Of a stretch of 64,000 bases of DNA, positions 6,593 through 33,538 are shown one piece after another. The stretch spans positions 1,105,658 to 1,169,657 of the forward strand of contig NZ_ACJN02000001.1 in the NCBI RefSeq assembly GCF_000174435.1, written 5' to 3'. The notes beneath the pieces were generated by a model, which was not told the DNA's origin, did no database searches, and worked only from the letters and a program-made list of their open reading frames with translations. The translations under genes were made by a program, and so were the position numbers. How positions within the stretch are numbered: the stretch's first letter is position 1; each line of letters opens with the position of its first letter. The DNA comes from Desulfonatronospira thiodismutans ASO3-1. Lineage in GTDB: Bacteria > Desulfobacterota > Desulfovibrionia > Desulfovibrionales > Desulfonatronovibrionaceae.

Positions 6593-6896
6593 CGGTCATA
6601 TTGAGAGGTTAAGCCATGCTGCAGCAGCCTTGTACCTGTTCCTGGTGACCGTGGGCGATCAGCAGGGGCTTAGCTACTACTCCGACCCCATTGTCATGCA
6701 GCGCCTGGGAATGGATGAAGTCACTTTGCAGCAGGCGCGCTTCAATCTGATCCAGGCTGATCTCATTGCCTGGAAGAAACCGCTTTATCAGGTTCTATCC
6801 ATCCAGGTCCCACCCGTAAATCAGGCCAGGACAGCACAGGCCGGGCCTGTGCACTTCTCAGACGTTCTCAAAAAACTTGCCGGGGGTAACACATGA
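6507..6896 (+). CDS. IS21-associated small protein upstream of istA, 129 aa
   Basis: Starts MYQKYPIHPQRLRKVPRQFS with AAAGGAGG seven bases upstream. The middle part (HAAAALYLFLVTVGDQQGLS, MQRLGMDEVTLQQARFNLI) looks like a winged-helix or replication-initiator-type DNA-binding fold, though I cannot name the family. The stop overlaps the istA start (ATGA), so the two are coupled. Its presence inside the IS ends, with tight coupling, argues for a function in control or targeting of transposition. Confidence 0.6.
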   Translation: MYQKYPIHPQRLRKVPRQFSWVDHRLVRDGHIERLSHAAAALYLFLVTVGDQQGLSYYSDPIVMQRLGMDEVTLQQARFNLIQADLIAWKKPLYQVLSIQVPPVNQARTAQAGPVHFSDVLKKLAGGNT

Positions 6897-8368
6897 TTGA
6901 TTATGAGCTTTATGCCAGAATAAAGCACTACCATGAACAAAAAGGACTTACCCCGGCCCAGATAGCAAAAGAACTGCAGCTGGATCCGCGTACAGTGGGC
7001 AAATGGCTCGAAGCAAAGCAGTTTCATCAAAGAAAGTCAGTAACAAGACCAAGCAAGCTTGATCCCTTCAAGGATACCATCGTCAGGATGCTGGAGGAGC
7101 ACCCCTACACAGCCGTCCAGGTTTTGCGCAGCATCAAGGAGCAGGGCTATACAGGAGGCTCCTCCATTCTCAAGGAATACATAAGCAAAGTCAGGCCCAA
7201 AAGGTCCAGGGCCTTTTTAAGTCTGGCCTTTGCCCCAGGAGAGTGCGCCCAGGTTGACTGGGGAAATCACGGCTCCATCCAGGTGGGAGACAGCAGGCGC
7301 AATCTCAGCTTCTTTGTCATGGTCCTTTGCTACAGCAGGATGATGTATCTTGAGTTCACTGTCTCCCAAAGCATGGAGCACTTCCTGTCCTGTCATCAAA
7401 ACGCCTTTGACGCATTCGGGGCTGTTCCCAAAAAAATCATGGTGGACAACCTGAAATGTGCAGTGCTCAAGCACCCCTATGGCCAAAAACCGGTTCTAAA
7501 TCCCAAATATCTTGACTTTGCAAAGCACTGGGGTTTTGAGATCAGTGCCTGCGGAGTCAGAAAGCCCCATGAAAAAGGCCGGGTGGAGAATGCCATAGGT
7601 TATGTCAAAAAGAACTTGCTGGCCGGACTTGAACTGCCGGATTACCGGGCCATCAACCATTATGCCCGCCACTGGTGCAGGGCAACAGCCAATGTACGTA
7701 TCCATGCCCAGACCGGCAAGAAGCCGGTGGACATGCTTGAAGAAGAAAGAGAGCACCTTTTGCCCCTGCCTGTTAACACCTATGATATCGGAGTCGTAAC
7801 CCAGGTCCGGGCCTCGTCGCAGTTCCGGATCACCCTGGAGTCCAACCGCTATTCCGTGCCAGCCAGGTACGCAGGCAAACGCCTGACCTTGAAGACTTAT
7901 CCTGATCGCTTATGCATCTATGACGGCAACAATCTTGTGGCCAGGCATATCCGCAGCTTTGACAAAAAAAGGGACATTGAAGACCCCGATCATGTCCAGG
8001 AGCTTATTGCCCAGCGCCGGGCAGCCAGGGATCAGCAATTGTTTTCCCGGTTCCTGGCTTTGTCCCCAAGAGCAAAGGATTATTACTTTGAGTTGGAGAA
8101 AAAGCACTTGAACATCAAACACCATGTCCAGAAGATTGTAGCCTTAAGCGAAATCTATGGCTCTGAAGCCGTGTCCAGGGCCATGGACGACGCATTCACC
8201 TACAGTGCCTTCTCCTGTGAGTATGTAGCCAACATCCTGGAGCAAAGAGCCAGGACCATGCCCGCACCAGGAGCCCTGCATCTGACCAGGCGAGAGGATC
8301 TGCTGGATATTGAAGTCAAAGACCCTGATCTAAGTATTTACGACAAACCCAAGGAGAAAAACCCATGA
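6893..8368 (+). CDS. istA: IS21-family transposase IstA
   Basis: 491 aa. An N-terminal helix-turn-helix (GLTPAQIAKELQLDPRTVGK, residues ~19-38) is followed by an RNase H-fold DDE core: Asp122 (QVDWG), Asp185 (MVDNLK) and Glu232 (KGRVENAIGY). The C-terminal beta-barrel-like region contains NRYSVPARYAGK. IstA cuts and joins IS ends. Length and motifs fit intact members of the family. The stop overlaps the istB start by four bases, the standard IS21 arrangement. Confidence 0.96.
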   Translation: MIDYELYARIKHYHEQKGLTPAQIAKELQLDPRTVGKWLEAKQFHQRKSVTRPSKLDPFKDTIVRMLEEHPYTAVQVLRSIKEQGYTGGSSILKEYISKVRPKRSRAFLSLAFAPGECAQVDWGNHGSIQVGDSRRNLSFFVMVLCYSRMMYLEFTVSQSMEHFLSCHQNAFDAFGAVPKKIMVDNLKCAVLKHPYGQKPVLNPKYLDFAKHWGFEISACGVRKPHEKGRVENAIGYVKKNLLAGLELPDYRAINHYARHWCRATANVRIHAQTGKKPVDMLEEEREHLLPLPVNTYDIGVVTQVRASSQFRITLESNRYSVPARYAGKRLTLKTYPDRLCIYDGNNLVARHIRSFDKKRDIEDPDHVQELIAQRRAARDQQLFSRFLALSPRAKDYYFELEKKHLNIKHHVQKIVALSEIYGSEAVSRAMDDAFTYSAFSCEYVANILEQRARTMPAPGALHLTRREDLLDIEVKDPDLSIYDKPKEKNP

Positions 8369-9126
8369 CCAACAAACACCAAAGCGAGGTGCACAGGCTG
8401 GAAGAAAATCTCCAGCTGCTCAAGCTGACCTGTATAAAAGAGCAGTACAGGCCGGCGGCTGACAAGGCTGCCAGGCAGAACTGGGATCATCTGGGCTATC
8501 TGGCCAGGCTGGTCCAGGCAGAAGCAGATGCCAGGCATGATCGCTCCATCCAACGCCGTATCAGGATGGCCCGTTTCCCAGGCATAAAAACCATGGAGAA
8601 CTTCGACTGGACATGGCCGACCAAGATCAACCGCCCGGCCATCCAAAACCTCTTTCGCCTTGGATTTATGAAGGACAAGGCCAACATAATAATCCTCGGA
8701 GGAGTAGGCCTGGGCAAGTCACACATAGCCACAGCCCTGGGTTACAGTGCATGCCTGGAAAAGTATTCTGTACTGTTTGCCACCACCATAGATGTCATAA
8801 ACACCCTCTCGGCCGCACAGGCTGCACACAAGCTCAAAACAGAGCTCAAGAAATATGTAAGTCCTGAACTGCTCATTCTGGATGAGCTTGGCTACCTGCC
8901 CATAGACAAGCAAGGTGCAGACCTGCTCTTCCAGGTTATAAGCCAGCGCTACGAACAAAAATCAACCATCCTGACCACCAACAGAGCCTTCAAGAAATGG
9001 CCCGAGGTGTTCAACAACGACAGCACCCTGACCTCAGCCATGTTGGACAGACTTCTGCACCATGCCGAAACCGTCCTCATTGAAGGCAAAAGCTATCGGA
9101 TGAAAGACCAGGTTCAGGAACAATAG
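8365..9126 (+). CDS. istB: IS21-family helper ATPase IstB
   Basis: 253 aa AAA+ ATPase of the DnaC/IstB type. Walker A GGVGLGKS is at residues 112-119, Walker B is LLILDELGY, and a sensor-like TTNRAFKKW follows. IstB is the target-selection ATPase for IstA. It is full length and intact, and coupled to istA through an ATGA overlap. It ends 109 bp before the right IS end. Confidence 0.96.
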   Translation: MTNKHQSEVHRLEENLQLLKLTCIKEQYRPAADKAARQNWDHLGYLARLVQAEADARHDRSIQRRIRMARFPGIKTMENFDWTWPTKINRPAIQNLFRLGFMKDKANIIILGGVGLGKSHIATALGYSACLEKYSVLFATTIDVINTLSAAQAAHKLKTELKKYVSPELLILDELGYLPIDKQGADLLFQVISQRYEQKSTILTTNRAFKKWPEVFNNDSTLTSAMLDRLLHHAETVLIEGKSYRMKDQVQEQ

Positions 9127-26413: not shown

Positions 26414-27154
26414 TTATATGTTTATCACCTCTATTTTTTTTATACATTTATCAGTTGTATAGTATCGCTTGTACCATTTTGATTCTAGGTGCCAAGCATC
26501 CGGTTTCCCCTCGTCAATTTCGACAATATCCGGAAAGAGATCAGCCAGCTCATCCATGAGTTGTGATATGGACTTGTCCGGTGACTTGTCCGGTGACTTA
26601 TTCTTTTGATCCCAGATCCACAGTCCAACTGCCCTGGCAAGGAAATCCAGTCTTAGATCTTTTACCTCTTTTAATGCTGCTCCTCGCCAGTAATGTTCAT
26701 GGCCAATGCACAGAATTCTTTCAGGAACTATACCGTCGCCGTTTTGTTCGTCCTCAATGAGCTGAAATATACCGTCTAATTCATTGGTAATGTTTTTCTT
26801 AATTTTTTTGATGTCAAAATTTGAGGTATCAATAGATATGGACAAGCTGAGTACATTGTCTTTATAATAGGACTCGACAAAATGATATCCTGAACGATAA
26901 AATCTTGGTACACATGTCAATAAGCTATCCAGCCTGATATCTCCATTAAGCCATGAGCGAATAATCTCTTCTGATTTTTTCACGTAAGACTTGTCTTGAT
27001 CAACTATATCTAGATATGAATTGATGTCAATTGCTTGTTCTGTTTCGTTATCATTATGCAAGTAGTCATTTCTAAGTTGATATTGCCACTTCCAGTAAAA
27101 GTAGAATCCTACCTTAAGATCCTTTGTTGCAGGCATATTTTGAGGGTCATTCAT
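26414..27154 (-). CDS. Hypothetical protein in the integrase operon, 246 aa
   Basis: Its ATG overlaps the integrase stop (TAATG), so it is translated with the integrase. It starts MNDPQNMPATKDLKVGFYFY and has WQYQLRNDYLHND, FLARAVGLWIWDQ, a small KSPDKSPDKS repeat, and a C-terminal WYKRYYTTDKCIKKIEVINI. Proteins with such a pattern accompany integrases in islands, but I cannot name the family. It is AT-richer than neighbouring genes. Confidence 0.6.
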   Translation of the reverse strand: MNDPQNMPATKDLKVGFYFYWKWQYQLRNDYLHNDNETEQAIDINSYLDIVDQDKSYVKKSEEIIRSWLNGDIRLDSLLTCVPRFYRSGYHFVESYYKDNVLSLSISIDTSNFDIKKIKKNITNELDGIFQLIEDEQNGDGIVPERILCIGHEHYWRGAALKEVKDLRLDFLARAVGLWIWDQKNKSPDKSPDKSISQLMDELADLFPDIVEIDEGKPDAWHLESKWYKRYYTTDKCIKKIEVINI

Positions 27155-28398
27155 TAAACCTCTCCTTTCTTTAAGCCCACTACTGTTTTGGCTTTGCCCG
27201 ATATTCCAGGTTCTGACTTATGGCTATTGATTTTGTTTAAGGCCTCAGTTGCCTGTTTCAGGCTGTCAGGGGCAAGATGGGCATAGCGTTCTGTTTGGCT
27301 GATCTGCTTATGCCCCAGGTATTCCTTCACTGTGTAAAGGGGTACTCCGGCCATAACCAGCCAGGACGCGCAGGTATGGCGTAAAGTGTGGAAGACAACC
27401 TTTTGGCGCGGGTCATCAATACCCTTGTTCCATCCAAGTTCTTTGATGGTTCGTTCGAAAGCTTTACTAACTTTCTTCCTTCTTCCTCCATTACGGTCTG
27501 GGAATACGAGCGCTGAGGATCTGTCGTCACTCCGCCTCTCAAGCATTTTGCGTACTCGCTTTGTTATAGGTATGTGACGCACATACTTGTTTTTGGTGTC
27601 TCTAAAAGTCACTAACCCTTGTGAAAAATCAATGTCTTGCCAGGTCAAGCTAAATATTTCCCCAGCTCTAGGTCCGCAATGCAGTGCAATCAGGGCTATG
27701 TCATGAGTGTTTTGACTGCTAAAGCAAAGAACATCCAGCAAGATTTCAGCCTCTGAATGTGTCAAAAAACGAATACGTCGATTATCATAGTGTGGCATTT
27801 TAACTAAACTGACAGGATCAACACCTTCAAAAATCCCATGGTCGCTGGCGTAGCAAAATACTTGTCGTACCACTGAAAGTGCGTATCCTATGGATCTGGG
27901 GGACAGGCTTGCATCTCGCATTTCTTTTTTTATTTTTTCCAGATGGAAGGCCGTTACCTTGGTAAAAAAAACTTCGCCGATAAATGGCTGTATCCATTTT
28001 TTGTAGAGGTGTCTTTCCGTGTCCCAAGATTTGTAAGCCTTTTCATGCTGCGAGTTAAGAAAATATTTCTCCCAGATTATGTTAAACGTTGTGCTTGCAA
28101 TCTCTTGCTCTTTCTTTAATTTTATATCTTCTGCACGACGCACATTTTCCATCTCTCTACGTTCGGCAAGAGTAAGCGCTCCCTCTCCAGTTCGTTGCGC
28201 CTTTTTTAATCTAGCAAGCTCCTCAGCTGCACTTTGAGGGGACCAACCTTCGCTTGCCCAGCCCAGAGCTTCTTCATGCCGTTTCCCATCCAGGGTATAT
28301 CTGATGGAAAAGTATTTATCGAACTGAACACCATGTTTGCGGGTTGGATGCTCTCTATATCTAACGCCTGGATATTTGGTATATTTCCATTTAGCCAT
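27154..28398 (-). CDS. int: Tyrosine-recombinase integrase, 414 aa
   Basis: Full catalytic set: Arg244 (CGPRAGEIFSL), His337 and Arg340 (FHTLRH), His363 (LGHKQIS) and nucleophile Tyr372 (TERYAHL). The N-terminal arm-binding and core-binding parts are present (VRYREHPTRKHGVQFDKYFS, a coiled stretch around 70-100, SAM-like region 105-200). The length fits full-size island/phage integrases. The gene starts 185 bp from a 50-bp tRNA-Pro 3' fragment, so it almost certainly integrates at that tRNA gene. It is the integrase of the larger island to its left. Confidence 0.95.
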   Translation of the reverse strand: MAKWKYTKYPGVRYREHPTRKHGVQFDKYFSIRYTLDGKRHEEALGWASEGWSPQSAAEELARLKKAQRTGEGALTLAERREMENVRRAEDIKLKKEQEIASTTFNIIWEKYFLNSQHEKAYKSWDTERHLYKKWIQPFIGEVFFTKVTAFHLEKIKKEMRDASLSPRSIGYALSVVRQVFCYASDHGIFEGVDPVSLVKMPHYDNRRIRFLTHSEAEILLDVLCFSSQNTHDIALIALHCGPRAGEIFSLTWQDIDFSQGLVTFRDTKNKYVRHIPITKRVRKMLERRSDDRSSALVFPDRNGGRRKKVSKAFERTIKELGWNKGIDDPRQKVVFHTLRHTCASWLVMAGVPLYTVKEYLGHKQISQTERYAHLAPDSLKQATEALNKINSHKSEPGISGKAKTVVGLKKGEV

Positions 28399-28583: not shown

Positions 28584-28633
28584 CTGAATGGGGTTCAGGG
28601 GGTCGCAGGTTCAAATCCTGCCATCCCGACCAT
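28584..28633 (+). repeat. Attachment site copy 1: 3' half of tRNA-Pro(GGG)
   Basis: It matches the anticodon arm (loop ATGGGGT, anticodon GGG), variable loop, T arm (GCAGG-TTCAAAT-CCTGC), acceptor strand CATCCCG, discriminator A and CCA of a proline tRNA. The 5' half is absent, so this is not a functional tRNA. It is identical over 50 bp to 32614-32663. Confidence 0.9.
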
Positions 28634-28641
28634 GATTTCAA

Positions 28642-28673
28642 GGGGTTAGGCTTTAGGTCTAGCCCTTTTTTTT
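28642..28673 (+). terminator. Terminator carried with att copy 1
   Basis: GGGGTTAGGC and GTCTAGCCC form a short stem (with G-U pairs) followed by TTTTTTTT. It is the natural tRNA terminator position, although its sequence differs from the one after copy 2. Confidence 0.6.
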
Positions 28674-28690
28674 GGTCCAAATGGCCTTGA

Positions 28691-28729: not shown

Positions 28730-28873
28730 TCAGCTGCTTACCTGAGAGTCATAGTATTTTTGCAGCTGTGCCTGAATAAGGAATTTGTGTTGGGCTGTAA
28801 GGTGGGAGTACCTGTCGGTCATGGCGATGTCGGCATGACCGCTCATTTCCTTGGCATCCACCGTCTCCATGGC
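28730..28873 (-). pseudogene. C-terminal remnant of a tyrosine integrase
   Basis: The minus strand reads AMETVDAKEMSGHADIAMTD, RYSHLTAQHKFLIQAQLQKY, YDSQVSS and stop. GHADIAMTDRYSH is the H/W...Y box of tyrosine recombinases, including the catalytic Tyr. The upstream Arg and HxLR boxes are gone, and sequence to the right of 28873 is unrelated. It differs from the intact neighbour (LGHKQISQTERYAH), so it is the relic of a second integrase, probably that of the 4-kb element. Confidence 0.82.
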
Positions 28874-28911: not shown

Positions 28912-29519
28912 ATGAAGGAGCACAGGGAATACGCGCAGCGGCTGATAAATTCCCTGGACAGTCTGACCCGGGAAAATGAACCGGACCGCATTGTTTCCCA
29001 GCCGCCTGATGTTCAAAAAAAGCGCTGGACTTGTACCATGAGTTTGAGAAGTCCGTTGAAAGGGATCAAAAGCGACGTATGGTGCTGCAAAACACACGAG
29101 AGATTCTTTCAGAGTTAGGGTACAGGGTTCTGGACCTGGAAGAAAAGAGTAATGAAGAAAGCGACGGGACCGGGGCCAAACCTCTGTCGCTTTATTTTCG
29201 CACACCGGAAAAAGGTGTGGTAAGGCTGGCTTGCGGCCTGGTCAACTCCCTTTTTTCTGAATTTATCCAGCTAAAGAAAAAAGGAAGGGATTATCCCGCG
29301 AGCGAGGCCGAGGGACACAGGTGTGAACAGTGGTGCCGGGACTATGATTTTTTGCTGCATGAACTGTCCAGCCAAAATATCCGGATAGAGGAAAACTGGA
29401 GAGAGTCTCCTGCTCTTGAGCAATGCAGGGTTATGGAAGTTTCCGAGGAATACCTGAAAGTTGGAAAAAGGGTTGCCCCCATTGTGAGGACCAAAAGAGA
29501 GAATATTCAAAATTCATAG
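28912..29519 (+). CDS. Unknown protein split by an A AAA AAG frameshift site
   Basis: Frame 1 starts MKEHREYAQRLINSLDSLTR and runs into PPDVQKK. The -1 frame then continues ALDLYHEFEKSVERDQ and goes on to the stop at 29517-29519. The crossing point is a run of seven A (29015-29021) followed by G, exactly the slippery heptamer A AAA AAG in the correct phase for -1 slippage. The joined product is about 200 aa and mostly helical, with a CEQWCRDYDFLLHEL segment. It may be programmed frameshifting or a simple one-base deletion in a decaying gene. No family is recognised. Confidence 0.5.
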
Positions 29520-29527
29520 GGGAGCTG

Positions 29528-30610
29528 TTACCTATAGATTTGTCCCAATGGCAAGGCTGGTGGTGAAAGTTCTGTTGACCAGTTGAAGCCATTACTGGCA
29601 TCTCCTCTTAAACGGATATGCCCTGTTTTAGGCTGTGCTGCACGAAATTTTATTCCCAGTTCTCTAAATTCCTTTCTGACCGCTGGCTCATACTTTTGAG
29701 TGCCTCCTGCAACCGGGGGAGCTGTGGCATAGGCCTGGTTTGCAAGGCGACAAATCCGTTTGCAATCTTCCAGGGTTGGAAGCTTTGTGAGGCCACGGAC
29801 AAAAGGAGATAGCACTGCATTAACGCTTGAATTACATATCTCAGACCAAATCCTATCATGATGGGCATTGCTTGACCCATGATGGGGAACCTTGAAGACA
29901 CTTGCCCGTGTACGGATGCAGGTCTGTTCTTCAAATATCAGTGACCACCCATGACCATTTTTTTCTTCAACGTCAGAACCCAGCAAGATCCCATCGTCAG
30001 GTAAGTCTATCCATACTGCTGCTGACAAATGATTAGGCTCAAGAACACGGGCACGTTTCTGTACAGATTTAACTTTCGGCATTTCAACAGCCAAGTTTTG
30101 CAAAAAATCATCGTATCGGTCAGAACTCGGAGAAAGTGAATAAGCCGAACAAACTTGATTCTGATGAATCAGCACATTTGGCGTAATTCTATTACGTCGT
30201 CTTTTTTTCTCCTGCAACAATTTGAATACCCTGCTGATCTCAGTGGTTCCTCCAGTTGCTTGCTTGCTGAGAGTTTCTGCATGCAATTCGACATAACGAA
30301 AGAATTCCTGGTTTGTCATGGCTGCAGGGCACCAAAACCGAGCGCCCGAACACGCCTCAACTAATTGAGATAAACCACGTGTATGATCATCATGCCAATG
30401 GGATGCAATAATATGCTTGACTTTTCTTTCGACCTCAACACCAAGTTTATGCAGATAACGCAGGGGAACTACCTCCCCCGAACGGGAGTCAATACAAGAA
30501 TCGATAATGATCCAATCTCCTGCTCCAGCATGAACAACAACACATTCTCCATACCCAGGCCCAAACAAAGAAACTTCTATCTCATCAGGATTAGGCGGGT
30601 GGAAAATCAT
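29528..30610 (-). CDS. ComEC-like metallo-beta-lactamase-fold hydrolase, last gene of a three-gene cargo operon
   Basis: 360 aa from the second codon ATG, which overlaps the upstream stop (TGATG). HIIASHWHDDHTRGL is the HxHxDH metal motif. The later LLGSDVEE provides the bridging Asp and VFKVPHHGSSN the His of the ComEC/Rec2-type family. Insertions of about 60 residues lie between the motifs. There is no signal peptide or membrane helix, so it is cytosolic. Such proteins are nucleases or phosphoesterases, and the substrate here is unknown. The operon position between two tRNA-Pro att copies suggests cargo of the small element, possibly defence-related. Confidence 0.8.
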   Translation of the reverse strand: MIFHPPNPDEIEVSLFGPGYGECVVVHAGAGDWIIIDSCIDSRSGEVVPLRYLHKLGVEVERKVKHIIASHWHDDHTRGLSQLVEACSGARFWCPAAMTNQEFFRYVELHAETLSKQATGGTTEISRVFKLLQEKKRRRNRITPNVLIHQNQVCSAYSLSPSSDRYDDFLQNLAVEMPKVKSVQKRARVLEPNHLSAAVWIDLPDDGILLGSDVEEKNGHGWSLIFEEQTCIRTRASVFKVPHHGSSNAHHDRIWSEICNSSVNAVLSPFVRGLTKLPTLEDCKRICRLANQAYATAPPVAGGTQKYEPAVRKEFRELGIKFRAAQPKTGHIRLRGDASNGFNWSTELSPPALPLGQIYR

Positions 30611-31188
30611 CAATCCTCACTAAAATATGCAGCTAGTTCTGCGGCTCGCTGCTTCGCACTTTCAAAATGCCTTTCATTCCAGCAAGGCAATCGCCGAAAA
30701 ACAAGCTCTGTAAAACGCTGGCGCATCCCCCCGCGCTTAATCCGATACGCAACACGGACACGAAATAATGCCCCTTCTTCAAGGAGCGGCAAATCATCAG
30801 GTCTGAGGTCATCTATAGGAAACTCACCTTCTTCCTGTTCAAAGGTCTTACCTGCGGTTAAATCGATCATTCTTGCCAGAAATATTCCGTTTTCTTTGTC
30901 TACCTCGTCTACTATTCCTTCGAATTCCCGAACAACCTTGATCCGCTCAACCTTTTTTTTTAGAGTTTTATAAGCTGGTGGAAATTGTCTAATGTTCGGC
31001 TGGCGATATGGTTCGGCAGAAGTCGTACCGCTGTATTGTCCATTGAGGGCTTCCTCACTATCCACAGGTTCTTGCAAAGGAGCCACATGTTTACCTGGAT
31101 CCACCGGCCTGATCTCAGATACATAATCATCAGGTACTTCAGGCGTATCTAATTCTGGATAGCTTGTGGGTAATGGGACTGCCGTCAC
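30610..31188 (-). CDS. Unknown protein, middle gene of the cargo operon, 192 aa
   Basis: GTG start inside the stop of the upstream gene (GTGA), with its own stop overlapping the metallo-hydrolase ATG. The first ~70 residues are Pro/Glu-rich and probably disordered (PTSYPELDTPEVPDDYV). The C-terminal 110 residues form a predicted beta-barrel-like domain (VVREFEGIVDEVDKENGIFL, GALFRVRVAYRIKRGGMR) ending in a helix FESAKQRAAELAAYF. I do not recognise a family. The tight coupling implies fixed stoichiometry with the hydrolase, perhaps as an adaptor or inhibitor. Confidence 0.65.
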   Translation of the reverse strand: MTAVPLPTSYPELDTPEVPDDYVSEIRPVDPGKHVAPLQEPVDSEEALNGQYSGTTSAEPYRQPNIRQFPPAYKTLKKKVERIKVVREFEGIVDEVDKENGIFLARMIDLTAGKTFEQEEGEFPIDDLRPDDLPLLEEGALFRVRVAYRIKRGGMRQRFTELVFRRLPCWNERHFESAKQRAAELAAYFSED

Positions 31189-31958
31189 TTTAATACCTCG
31201 ATCTCTTTCATGATTTGATTGATAATGAATTCAGCATGGCCCATGGCCGTGCTCCATTGATGCTCCAAGACGTGCATGACTTTAGAGCACCCAACCGCCT
31301 CCTCTATCCCAACCACATCGTAGTGATTGTTGATATCCATAAACACACCACTATTCCCAGATAATTCAGAGGAAGGCTGAATCTTGGCCCGGACATACCC
31401 CTTGAGCCCTTCCTTTTTTGAACGATTCTCCCGCATGGTCAAATTGAGCATACCGCCCTGTTCTTCAGTATCCTCTCCTTCAAAAGATCTTGCCCACTCA
31501 CCCCACGGCTCCCAGGGTGCAAGTTTTTTCCCTAAAACAATTCTGGCCTCATTACTCCCTGCATCAAAATGAACTGATCTATTTATTCCCAGGATTCCAA
31601 TTGGCGTATAGGTTAAAAAATCGGTAAATGTTTTGAGCGCAAAATCCTTTATCAGTTCCAAAGGACCAGAATTACTCCTGACCATAAATCGGTTACGTTC
31701 TGCTTGGACAAAAAAATATTCAGTCTGGAATTTACATAGTTCGGGATGGATTATTTCGATCTCGGCCTCAAATGTTTCCTGCTCTCCAATTATACCGTTT
31801 TTGGCAAACCACCACGGTTGAAAAATCGCTGGGTTGAAACGACCAAGAAGTACAATAGAAGCATTGTCAATTTCTGGGGTAATCTTCATTGCTGGTGCTG
31901 CTAAGCTGAGCTTTGGCTTTGTTTCTTTTGGTATTTGTTCATCACAGTAGAGGAACAT
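31185..31958 (-). CDS. Unknown protein, first gene of the cargo operon, 257 aa
   Basis: Starts MFLYCDEQIPKETKPKLSLA, with GGAGGG just upstream. An internal start at MKITPEIDNASIVLLGRFNP is possible. The remainder is alpha/beta, with EQETFEAEIEIIHPELCKFQ, LTYTPIGILGINRSVHFD, and NNHYDVVGIEEAVGCSKVMH, ending in a helix. The organisation (beta strands, then a Trp/His-containing tail) loosely recalls the TIGR04255-type family, but I cannot confirm it. It is the operon leader, and its stop overlaps the next start. Confidence 0.62.
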   Translation of the reverse strand: MFLYCDEQIPKETKPKLSLAAPAMKITPEIDNASIVLLGRFNPAIFQPWWFAKNGIIGEQETFEAEIEIIHPELCKFQTEYFFVQAERNRFMVRSNSGPLELIKDFALKTFTDFLTYTPIGILGINRSVHFDAGSNEARIVLGKKLAPWEPWGEWARSFEGEDTEEQGGMLNLTMRENRSKKEGLKGYVRAKIQPSSELSGNSGVFMDINNHYDVVGIEEAVGCSKVMHVLEHQWSTAMGHAEFIINQIMKEIEVLK

Positions 31959-32457
31959 GACCCTCCGGTCAGAGGGCTCGTCAAGCCGAGACGCAAATCT
32001 TACTCGAAACCTTGGCTCCGGCCAAGGAAGGTATTTTATGCTGAATAGATACTTTTAATTTAAAAAATGAAGCTGGAAGCCTTAATTATACGATATCTTC
32101 AAGAAAATAATTTATATCCGGGACCATACCTTGATGTCAAGTTGACTAAAAAACTCAAGTTAATGCTAAAAAATAGCATCACAAAAAATGCTGATTATTC
32201 CCAAAGTAAGGTGAAAAGCTTAGCCTGCGTAAACACTTGTCAAGATCAGGATCACCCAAGCGAAAAGCCAAGGAAATTAAGGCCGCGTTGGCTTATCTAT
32301 CTCTCACTATTGCTGTTGTTAAGTCAAAAATCAAAGATGATATGATTTTTAGTGGATAAGAGTTTGAAGAGGTTAAGCTTCAGCTGGAACAGCAAGCTTA
32401 GAAAAGCCGGGATTTTGCCTGGCTTTTCTCATTCCTGGCCCATGCCTTTGATTTTGG
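31959..32457. other. Right part of the 4-kb element: promoter side and decayed sequence
   Basis: The operon promoter must lie near 31960-32060. Rightward frames at 32067-32440 are broken by several stops. Fragments such as KAKEIKAALAYLSLTIAVVK, then FEEVKLQLEQQA, look like remains of a helical protein. A GAAAAGCC / GGCTTTTC hairpin stands at 32401-32428. No intact gene. Confidence 0.45.
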
Positions 32458-32613: not shown

Positions 32614-32663
32614 CTGAATGGGGTTCAGGGGGTCGCAGGTTCAAATCCTGCCATCCCGACCAT
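32614..32663 (+). repeat. Attachment site copy 2: 3' half of tRNA-Pro(GGG)
   Basis: Identical over 50 bp to 28584-28633 and again lacking the 5' tRNA half (upstream sequence does not pair). It marks the outer right border of the integrated DNA, after which chromosomal genes begin. Confidence 0.9.
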
Positions 32664-32671
32664 AAAAGCAA

Positions 32672-32703
32672 GGGGTTACCTTTCGGGGTAACCCCATTTT
32701 TTT
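32672..32703 (+). terminator. Intrinsic terminator after att copy 2
   Basis: GGGGTTACC / GGGTAACCCC stem with a TTTC-G loop, then ATTTTTTT. Probably the original terminator of the tRNA-Pro gene, before integrations separated it from the intact tRNA. Confidence 0.78.
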
Positions 32704-32831
32704 GTGCTGTTTCCCCGGGGGAGCACTCGGGGGGTAAACTATCTGTTTAATGATTCTACAGGCCTGCCCTGGGAAGTGTCCAGCTGAACCAGCTCAGCGG
32801 AAGCGACAACTTGCTTGAAATTTATTGCGCC

Positions 32832-33254
32832 TTATCGGTTTCGTGAGTTCGCAAAAACAGGGTTGAGCTTCAAGCCGGGGATCCGATTGAAATGGCGAAG
32901 GTTCCCGGTAACAAGCTTGAGGTTATGACCAATGGCTGTAGCCGCAATCTGAATGTCCGCGTCAGGAAGGATCATACCTGTGTCTTCGAGATGAGCGCGG
33001 ATGCTGCCGAAAACCTTCGCAATGCCGATGTCATAAGGCAGAACGGTGACGGCGGGCACAACTCTCTGCTCGATATTAGATATGTGTCGTTCGCGGTCAT
33101 GGGAACGATAGGCACCTTTGTATAATTCACCTATTACAACAGCACTCGTGAATTGGGCCTCGCGAGAAACGTGCATTATCCATTTTGCGTAGGCTTTTGC
33201 AGGGCGTGGGCGGAGTAATTCTGAAATTGCATCAGTGTCAAAGAGGAATGCCAT
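32832..33254 (-). CDS. vapC: VapC-like PIN-domain toxin, 140 aa
   Basis: MAFLFDTDAISELLRPRPA carries the first PIN acidic residues (FDTD, with the usual E at SE), VVIGELYKGAY the second Glu, and ILPDADIQIAATAIGHNLKL the last Asp pair. LVTGNLRHFNRIPGL matches the PIN C-terminal box. These are Mg-dependent RNases that cleave tRNA or rRNA. It is preceded by a Phd/YefM-type antitoxin with a 2-bp gap, the usual order. The toxin looks intact. Confidence 0.93.
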   Translation of the reverse strand: MAFLFDTDAISELLRPRPAKAYAKWIMHVSREAQFTSAVVIGELYKGAYRSHDRERHISNIEQRVVPAVTVLPYDIGIAKVFGSIRAHLEDTGMILPDADIQIAATAIGHNLKLVTGNLRHFNRIPGLKLNPVFANSRNR

Positions 33255-33256
33255 AG

Positions 33257-33538
33257 TCAGTGTTCGGGATCAGGGGTGTTTCGTTGTCCATGCCGAGGGG
33301 AAGCGTCAAGTATTGAGGCCAATTCTTCGCTGTTCTCCCAACCGCCTACAATACTTGCGAGCCCACACTCCGGACCCGCTTTCCTCAAGCGTTCAAGCTG
33401 TTCGAGATCGTTGGGACTGACAAGAGCGGCGATTGGCTTCCCATGCCTTGTGATAAGAACTGAATTACCTGCTTCAACTGTGCGGATGCATTCTGAGAAG
33501 GTGGCCTTGGCCTTGGCTACGGAAATATTGTTTTTCAT
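33257..33538 (-). CDS. vapB: Phd/YefM-family antitoxin, 93 aa
   Basis: MKNNISVAKAKATFSECIRT, then LITRHGKPIAALVSPNDLEQ is the Phd/YefM DNA-binding fold. The C-terminal tail (ILDASPRHGQRNTPDPEH) would wrap around the PIN toxin. The gene directly precedes vapC and should autoregulate the pair. Confidence 0.92.
   Translation of the reverse strand: MKNNISVAKAKATFSECIRTVEAGNSVLITRHGKPIAALVSPNDLEQLERLRKAGPECGLASIVGGWENSEELASILDASPRHGQRNTPDPEH

Follow-up and report, generated by a model that had tools for sequence, protein, structure and literature searches.

A conserved and mobile three-gene operon with a ComEC-like metallo-hydrolase, a likely prophage-borne anti-phage system

Three overlapping genes of Desulfonatronospira thiodismutans ASO3-1, here called g1, g2 and g3, form a conserved, co-inherited and mobile unit. 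Our preferred reading, to which we give a probability of about 0.6, is that they constitute a mobile and mainly prophage-borne anti-phage system in which g1 is the sensor, g2 a DNA-binding adaptor and g3 a nuclease. The operon lies in a 64,000-nucleotide stretch of the genome, the whole of which is called the window below. The relevant features, in window coordinates, are as follows.

31185-31958, minus strand: g1, an ORF of 257 aa, the first gene of the operon.
30610-31188, minus strand: g2, an ORF of 192 aa.
29528-30613, minus strand: g3, an ORF of 361 aa, with its likely start at the ATG at 30610.
30383-30400, minus strand: HWHDDH metal-binding motif of g3 (H72, H74, D76, H77), read from the sequence.
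28584-28674: left att-like copy, the 3' half of tRNA-Pro with a terminator-like tail.
32614-32704: right att-like copy, the first 50 nt of which match the left copy exactly.
27154-28398, minus strand: intact tyrosine integrase of a neighboring ~41-kb element (Phage_integrase, E 1.1e-33).
~28735-28870, minus strand: remnant of a tyrosine integrase C-terminus (GHADIAMTDRYSHL...), recognized in translation.
29031-29519, plus strand: ORF of 146-162 aa beside the operon, with no family and outside the conserved trio.
32067-32345, plus strand: open ORF of 92 aa.

A preliminary description of this DNA had reported three leftward genes overlapping by a few bases, and the ORFs bear this out. g1 and g2 share 4 nt (GTGA, 31185-31188), and g2 and g3 overlap by 1 nt if the ATG within TGATG (30610) is taken as the start of g3; in the mechanical ORF the start is a TTG, one codon upstream of this ATG. 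The same description placed the trio, as the only intact genes, in a small integrase-borne element between att copies, which was right in part. The att copies share 50 identical nt (28584-28633 and 32614-32663), representing the 3' half of a tRNA-Pro(GGG) gene, but of an integrase the 4.03-kb segment that carries the operon between them has only a remnant, the intact integrase lying outside it. The trio may also not be the only intact genes, the ORFs at 29031-29519 and 32067-32345 being open as well, the former also in the near-identical contig L009.

An intact tRNA-Pro(GGG) gene lies ~12.3 kb to the left of the window (G000:C1:1093345-1093421). Based on this gene and the two att copies, we delimit a ~41-kb neighboring element from the tRNA gene to the left att copy, with the intact integrase at its right end, and the 4.03-kb segment from the left to the right att copy. 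The whole region (G000:C1:1093345-1138319) has the appearance of tandem accretion at tRNA-Pro(GGG), with the intact tRNA followed by the ~41-kb element and then by the 4-kb att-bounded remnant. A near-identical copy of the island makes up a 4.4-kb contig (L009 1-4440) deposited under a Thermoplasmata MAG (B1Sed10), which is probably misbinned bacterial DNA. The window also holds a VapC-like PIN gene with a VapB/Phd-like gene just beyond the right att copy (32832-33538, minus strand) and a gene pair resembling an IS21-type transposase and its ATPase (6893-9126, plus strand).

Linkage of the three genes is far above chance. In a g3 profile scan, all 33 viral-contig loci with full-length g3 relatives carried g1-g2-g3 in the same order, and profile searches confined strong matches of g1, g2 and g3 to the same 7 of ~390 genomes of the phylum. 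A search for g1 in 395 phylum genomes had identified six other genomes, each with adjoining g2 and g3 in this order; in one of them a contig end cuts g3, a matching remainder being present on another contig of that genome. Both plasmid matches, from Adhaeribacter (Bacteroidota) and Pantoea, carry the trio. Intergenic distances are mostly overlaps or a few bases, and the protein trees of g1, g2 and g3 agree (Mantel r 0.83-0.90 over 35 loci; 0 of 2000 permutations reached the observed correlation). Scattered, unlinked homologues were sought with all three profiles and not found: in ~390 genomes the only unlinked g3 relatives at E <= 1e-8 were ComEC-sized proteins scoring at most ~36 bits, and the only unlinked g1 relatives were four distant proteins in other short operons. 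MBL matches in loci L051-L059 were weak and were discarded as other MBL proteins without g1 or g2. These results strongly support the earlier proposal that the three genes, one of them for a ComEC-like hydrolase, form a cargo system, and a housekeeping role was rejected because of the patchy spread and mobile contexts. The prophage versions of g1, g2 and g3 are contained in PHROG 36401, 29493 and 28593, for which the PHROGs function label is "unknown"; g1 and g2 of the window are too distant to match these families.

By its sequence, g3 is a member of the MBL-fold metallo-hydrolase superfamily with an intact metal site. Lactamase_B is the only Pfam domain within the 361-aa protein (E 9e-9, 36 bits, cut-off 22.7). 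H72, D76, H77, D214, H244 and H245 do not vary among 35 homologues, 34 of which also have H74, and because of this near-invariance selection appears to keep the enzyme active. The closest solved relatives of g3 are ComEC/competence proteins and its weak NCBIfam relatives are led by ComEC, in accord with the ComEC-like fold and HxHxDH motif first assigned to it. Nevertheless, g3 is not ComEC/Rec2 proper, scoring 29.1 bits against a cut-off of 190.05 for TIGR00361 and lacking a membrane competence domain. MBL hydrolases act on many substrates. We regard g3 as a likely DNA-cutting nuclease, a role that fits it better than that of a nucleotide hydrolase because g3 is ComEC-like, g2 has a predicted OB-like barrel, and HamM is a demonstrated MBL DNase. 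Assignment to the NCBI "anti-phage 6A-MBL system" was rejected (NF058524 cut-off 220 bits; 13.8 for g3 of the window and 28.4 for its E. coli relative); this model had no match above cut-off in 118 genomes, most of its matches being ComEC-like by size. AVAST type 1 (Avs1a) was likewise rejected, g3 scoring 10.9 bits against the NF041809 cut-off of 420.

g1 and g2 had originally been said to match no family, and neither has a credible match in Pfam, NCBIfam or PADLOC. Their homologues gave no credible family either in the libraries tried, and matches of single homologues to Pfam and NCBIfam models (CT584, CyoA, Rep_Org_C and others), each involving one member, were attributed to chance. Solved structures for g1, g2 and the TIGR04255 family considered below were sought by sequence and none was found. 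Structure prediction yielded folds for both proteins, but the fold matches are weak.

The g2 model comprises a low-confidence region (residues 1-80), a five-stranded barrel (82-165) and a C-terminal helix (172-191), predicting a disordered tail followed by an OB-like barrel. Weak matches to the barrel were obtained with the IF5A C-terminal domain (best Z 7.8, rmsd 2.4 over 63 residues) and with cold-shock domains (Z 5-6), and Foldseek alone gave no significant match for g2. We propose that this protein is a DNA-binding adaptor. The AlphaFold2 model of g1 (pLDDT 89.7, pTM 0.83) consists of two repeats of strand-helices-strands-helix, and the protein is predicted to adopt a duplicated beta-alpha-beta saddle fold like that of guanido kinases, AdoMetDC and TBP. 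Foldseek found no convincing match to this model in the PDB and one fair match in BFVD, the unnamed A0A515MGR4 (TM 0.51/0.61), together with weak giant-virus proteins. A second-look structural alignment ranked ATP:guanido kinases best (Z 8-9.4), above AdoMetDC (Z ~7) and TBP (Z 6.1-6.5, rmsd 5-6, ~155-163 residues), all of them weak matches at a level where, according to the aligner's own note, Z values may reflect a mere common arrangement. The role that we propose for g1 is that of a sensor or regulator.

The four distant g1 relatives detected with the g1 profile (E 1e-15 to 8e-5) each head a short operon in which two different unnamed partners replace g2 and g3. These partners belong to the W, D and T families that also occur in operons headed by TIGR04255, an NCBIfam family with no assigned function described as "sporadically distributed", with bit scores against models from TIGR04255 operons that are weaker outside L099.

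L099 1690-3417, plus strand: operon of a distant g1 relative with W (90.7 bits) and D (56.9 bits) partners.
L100 9353-11158, plus strand: operon of a distant g1 relative with a T partner (24.5 bits; blastp 2e-12 to a TIGR04255 partner in a small custom set).
L101 6880-8626, minus strand: operon of a distant g1 relative with a T partner (18.9 bits).
L102 1023-2774, plus strand: operon of a distant g1 relative with a W partner (19.4 bits).
L104, L110 and L113-L133: loci of TIGR04255 operons, centered at ~1490-2280 in most.

TIGR04255 heads short operons with interchangeable partners, which include W (NWDGYGA) with D, T (TQDCD/TNSCD), YNCIxWAA proteins, a MazF-like gene, and HEPN-like and HicA-like proteins, the last two labels being readings of motifs that PDB sequence searches did not confirm. 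On a Methylocystis plasmid (L109 2527-5529, plus strand) an abortive infection family gene is located just upstream of such an operon on the same strand. The resemblance to g1 lies in a protein of ~250 aa that comes first in a short operon with varying partners. Sequence searches gave no support for membership of g1 in the family, 0 of 29 g1 members matching the TIGR04255 model, and an hhalign comparison of the two was suggestive but not significant (E 0.012 over 114 columns, probability 3.7%; controls 0.39-0.49). No MBL partner was found with TIGR04255 in 27 loci examined, and g2 and g3, the partners in the window, were not seen alongside it. No paper on TIGR04255 was found in the literature searched. 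On these grounds g1 could be a remote protein of the TIGR04255 type. We tentatively suggest, at somewhat less than even odds, that a single sensor superfamily, with g1 and TIGR04255 as its two branches, heads a large and as yet unnamed set of modular immune operons, whose interchangeable effectors would be HEPN-like, HicA-like and MazF-like proteins, W/D, T, and a ComEC-like nuclease assisted by an OB-fold adaptor.

A family that shares partners with distant g1 relatives and heads operons with toxin-type HEPN-like, HicA-like and MazF-like proteins also speaks, together with mobile-element carriage and tight gene overlap, for a toxin-antitoxin or addiction module, with g3 as the toxin and g1 and/or g2 as its neutralizer. 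Such a module would stabilize prophages, plasmids and islands, and protection against phages would be secondary. We consider this unlikely, although it deserves some weight: a DNase-type MBL toxin would be unusual for toxin-antitoxin pairs, addiction has no need of a third, conserved gene whose product has an OB-like barrel, and the E. coli member of the group bears an anti-phage label.

The E. coli operons place the trio in prophages. The MBL gene related to g3 was detected in 15 of 5426 complete E. coli genomes, 14 of which share an operon that is at least 99% identical. In the regions read, the operon is located in lambdoid prophages, flanked by antiterminator Q and the holin gene and antisense to the late genes, and neighbors in the wider set of loci match Q-like antiterminators, integrases, and holin and endolysin families. 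The E. coli g1 relative, WP_000143147.1, has the NCBI product name "anti-phage protein" in two recently annotated genomes and is still a "hypothetical protein" in other E. coli annotations. None of the NCBIfam models checked accounts for the name, which thus rests on other evidence; a 2025 study of E. coli prophage defense, reportedly by Brenes and Laub, is our guess at a possible source. The preliminary description of the operon as unrecognized holds for the family models searched with g1 and g2 but has to be softened for E. coli because of this name, an anti-phage function apparently being suspected there already by NCBI. Vassallo 2022, Rousset 2022 and DefensePredictor make no mention of an MBL system in their main texts.

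Because of prophage carriage, the cargo slot between Q and holin and the NCBI name, we consider anti-phage defense to be the likely function of the trio, and other phages its likely targets. Two observations count against a defense role: no INPHARED phage record has a g3 relative, and most bacterial chromosomal copies are solitary amid housekeeping genes. The kind of position favored by anti-phage systems, as first envisaged for the trio, was found to the extent that its copies occupy islands and mobile elements (prophages, plasmids and the tRNA-Pro island), but not as regards defense islands, outside which most chromosomal copies lie; one copy, in L016, adjoins a large DUF1156/DUF499 cluster with a possible DNA methylase (L016 2002-15000). 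A PADLOC scan of all neighbors pooled gave mixed matches, many of them to methyltransferases, that are not assignable to single loci. Methyltransferases are also carried by phages.

The recurrent slot from antiterminator Q to the lysis genes, in which the operon runs against the direction of late transcription, would also suit a superinfection or lysogeny-control cassette acting on its own prophage or close relatives instead of in general defense, for instance by degrading incoming DNA of related phages or by modulating late transcription. This is improbable in our view, as the trio also occurs on plasmids and at non-prophage chromosomal sites in several bacterial families, carriage that a lysogeny-specific function would leave unexplained. 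Some MBL proteins, such as Apyc1, hydrolyze cyclic nucleotides. That g3 degrades a nucleotide signal or metabolite bound by g1 is nonetheless very improbable, for while the best second-look matches of g1 are small-molecule enzymes and Apyc1 is among the weak PDB matches of g3, the latter is nearest to ComEC nucleases rather than Apyc1, and g2 has a predicted OB/cold-shock-like barrel.

As an anti-phage system, the trio would be self-contained and horizontally mobile, carried here by a small tRNA-Pro island. g3 would be a soluble MBL nuclease of ComEC type, inactive in the resting cell, perhaps by means of its inserts and its partners. The disordered tail of g2 would bind g3 and the OB-like barrel would bind DNA, the two proteins together doing the work of the DNA-processing part of ComEC, its OB fold and MBL domain, with no membrane channel. 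ComEC joins an OB fold, a predicted DNA binder, to an MBL domain with predicted nuclease activity (PMC5031224), and by analogy g2 and g3 resemble a soluble split ComEC pair. In HamM, the accessory MBL protein of Hachiman, inserts block the active site, and cleavage by a protease partner turns the protein into a DNase (PMC12799240). g3 has inserts but no protease nearby, and g1 and g2 would therefore have to bring about its release. g1 would sense an infection cue and then license g2-g3 for DNA cutting, by which the invading DNA would be destroyed or the infected cell killed. During lysogeny, a promoter of its own would drive the operon, and antisense late transcription would overrun it upon prophage induction.

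New in this account are the wide spread and close linkage of the trio, the fold predictions for g1 and g2, the interpretation as a soluble ComEC-like system, and the sharing of partners with TIGR04255. If correct, it would add a widely spread, prophage-carried defense system missing from the catalogues searched, place a soluble ComEC-type nuclease under a new, protease-free kind of control, and provide a testable role for the common TIGR04255, the first gene in operons with toxin-like partners.

Pairs of an MBL nuclease and a trypsin-like protease occur in Hachiman, AVAST, Lamassu and DRT systems (PMC12799240). Like the role proposed for g3, these pairs, including that of HamM, have a ComEC-like MBL effector with inserts that is controlled by its partner; they differ from the trio, which lacks a trypsin-like protease as well as any HamA/HamB, Avs, Lmu or RT partner. 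An MBL-trypsin pair of the HamM type, defined by a neighboring trypsin-like protease that is fused to a defense enzyme, was rejected for the trio, as g1 and g2 match no Pfam protease and are themselves the conserved neighbors of g3. Lamassu LmuA and the DRT-associated RTasMBL are MBL effectors distantly related to g3 (E 3e-5 to 4e-12; PADLOC), but neither an SMC-like LmuB nor a reverse transcriptase is found beside g3. Lamassu itself was rejected, the LmuA match of g3 being weak (5e-7) and its partners in all loci being g1 and g2 and not the SMC-like ATPase LmuB. ComEC/Rec2, which includes the closest solved relatives of g3, combines an MBL nuclease domain with an OB fold as do g3 and g2 together, whereas the trio has no transmembrane channel, divides the OB-like and MBL parts between separate soluble proteins and adds a third protein. 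The modularity proposed for the g1/TIGR04255 superfamily would be comparable to that of CBASS and NLR-like systems.
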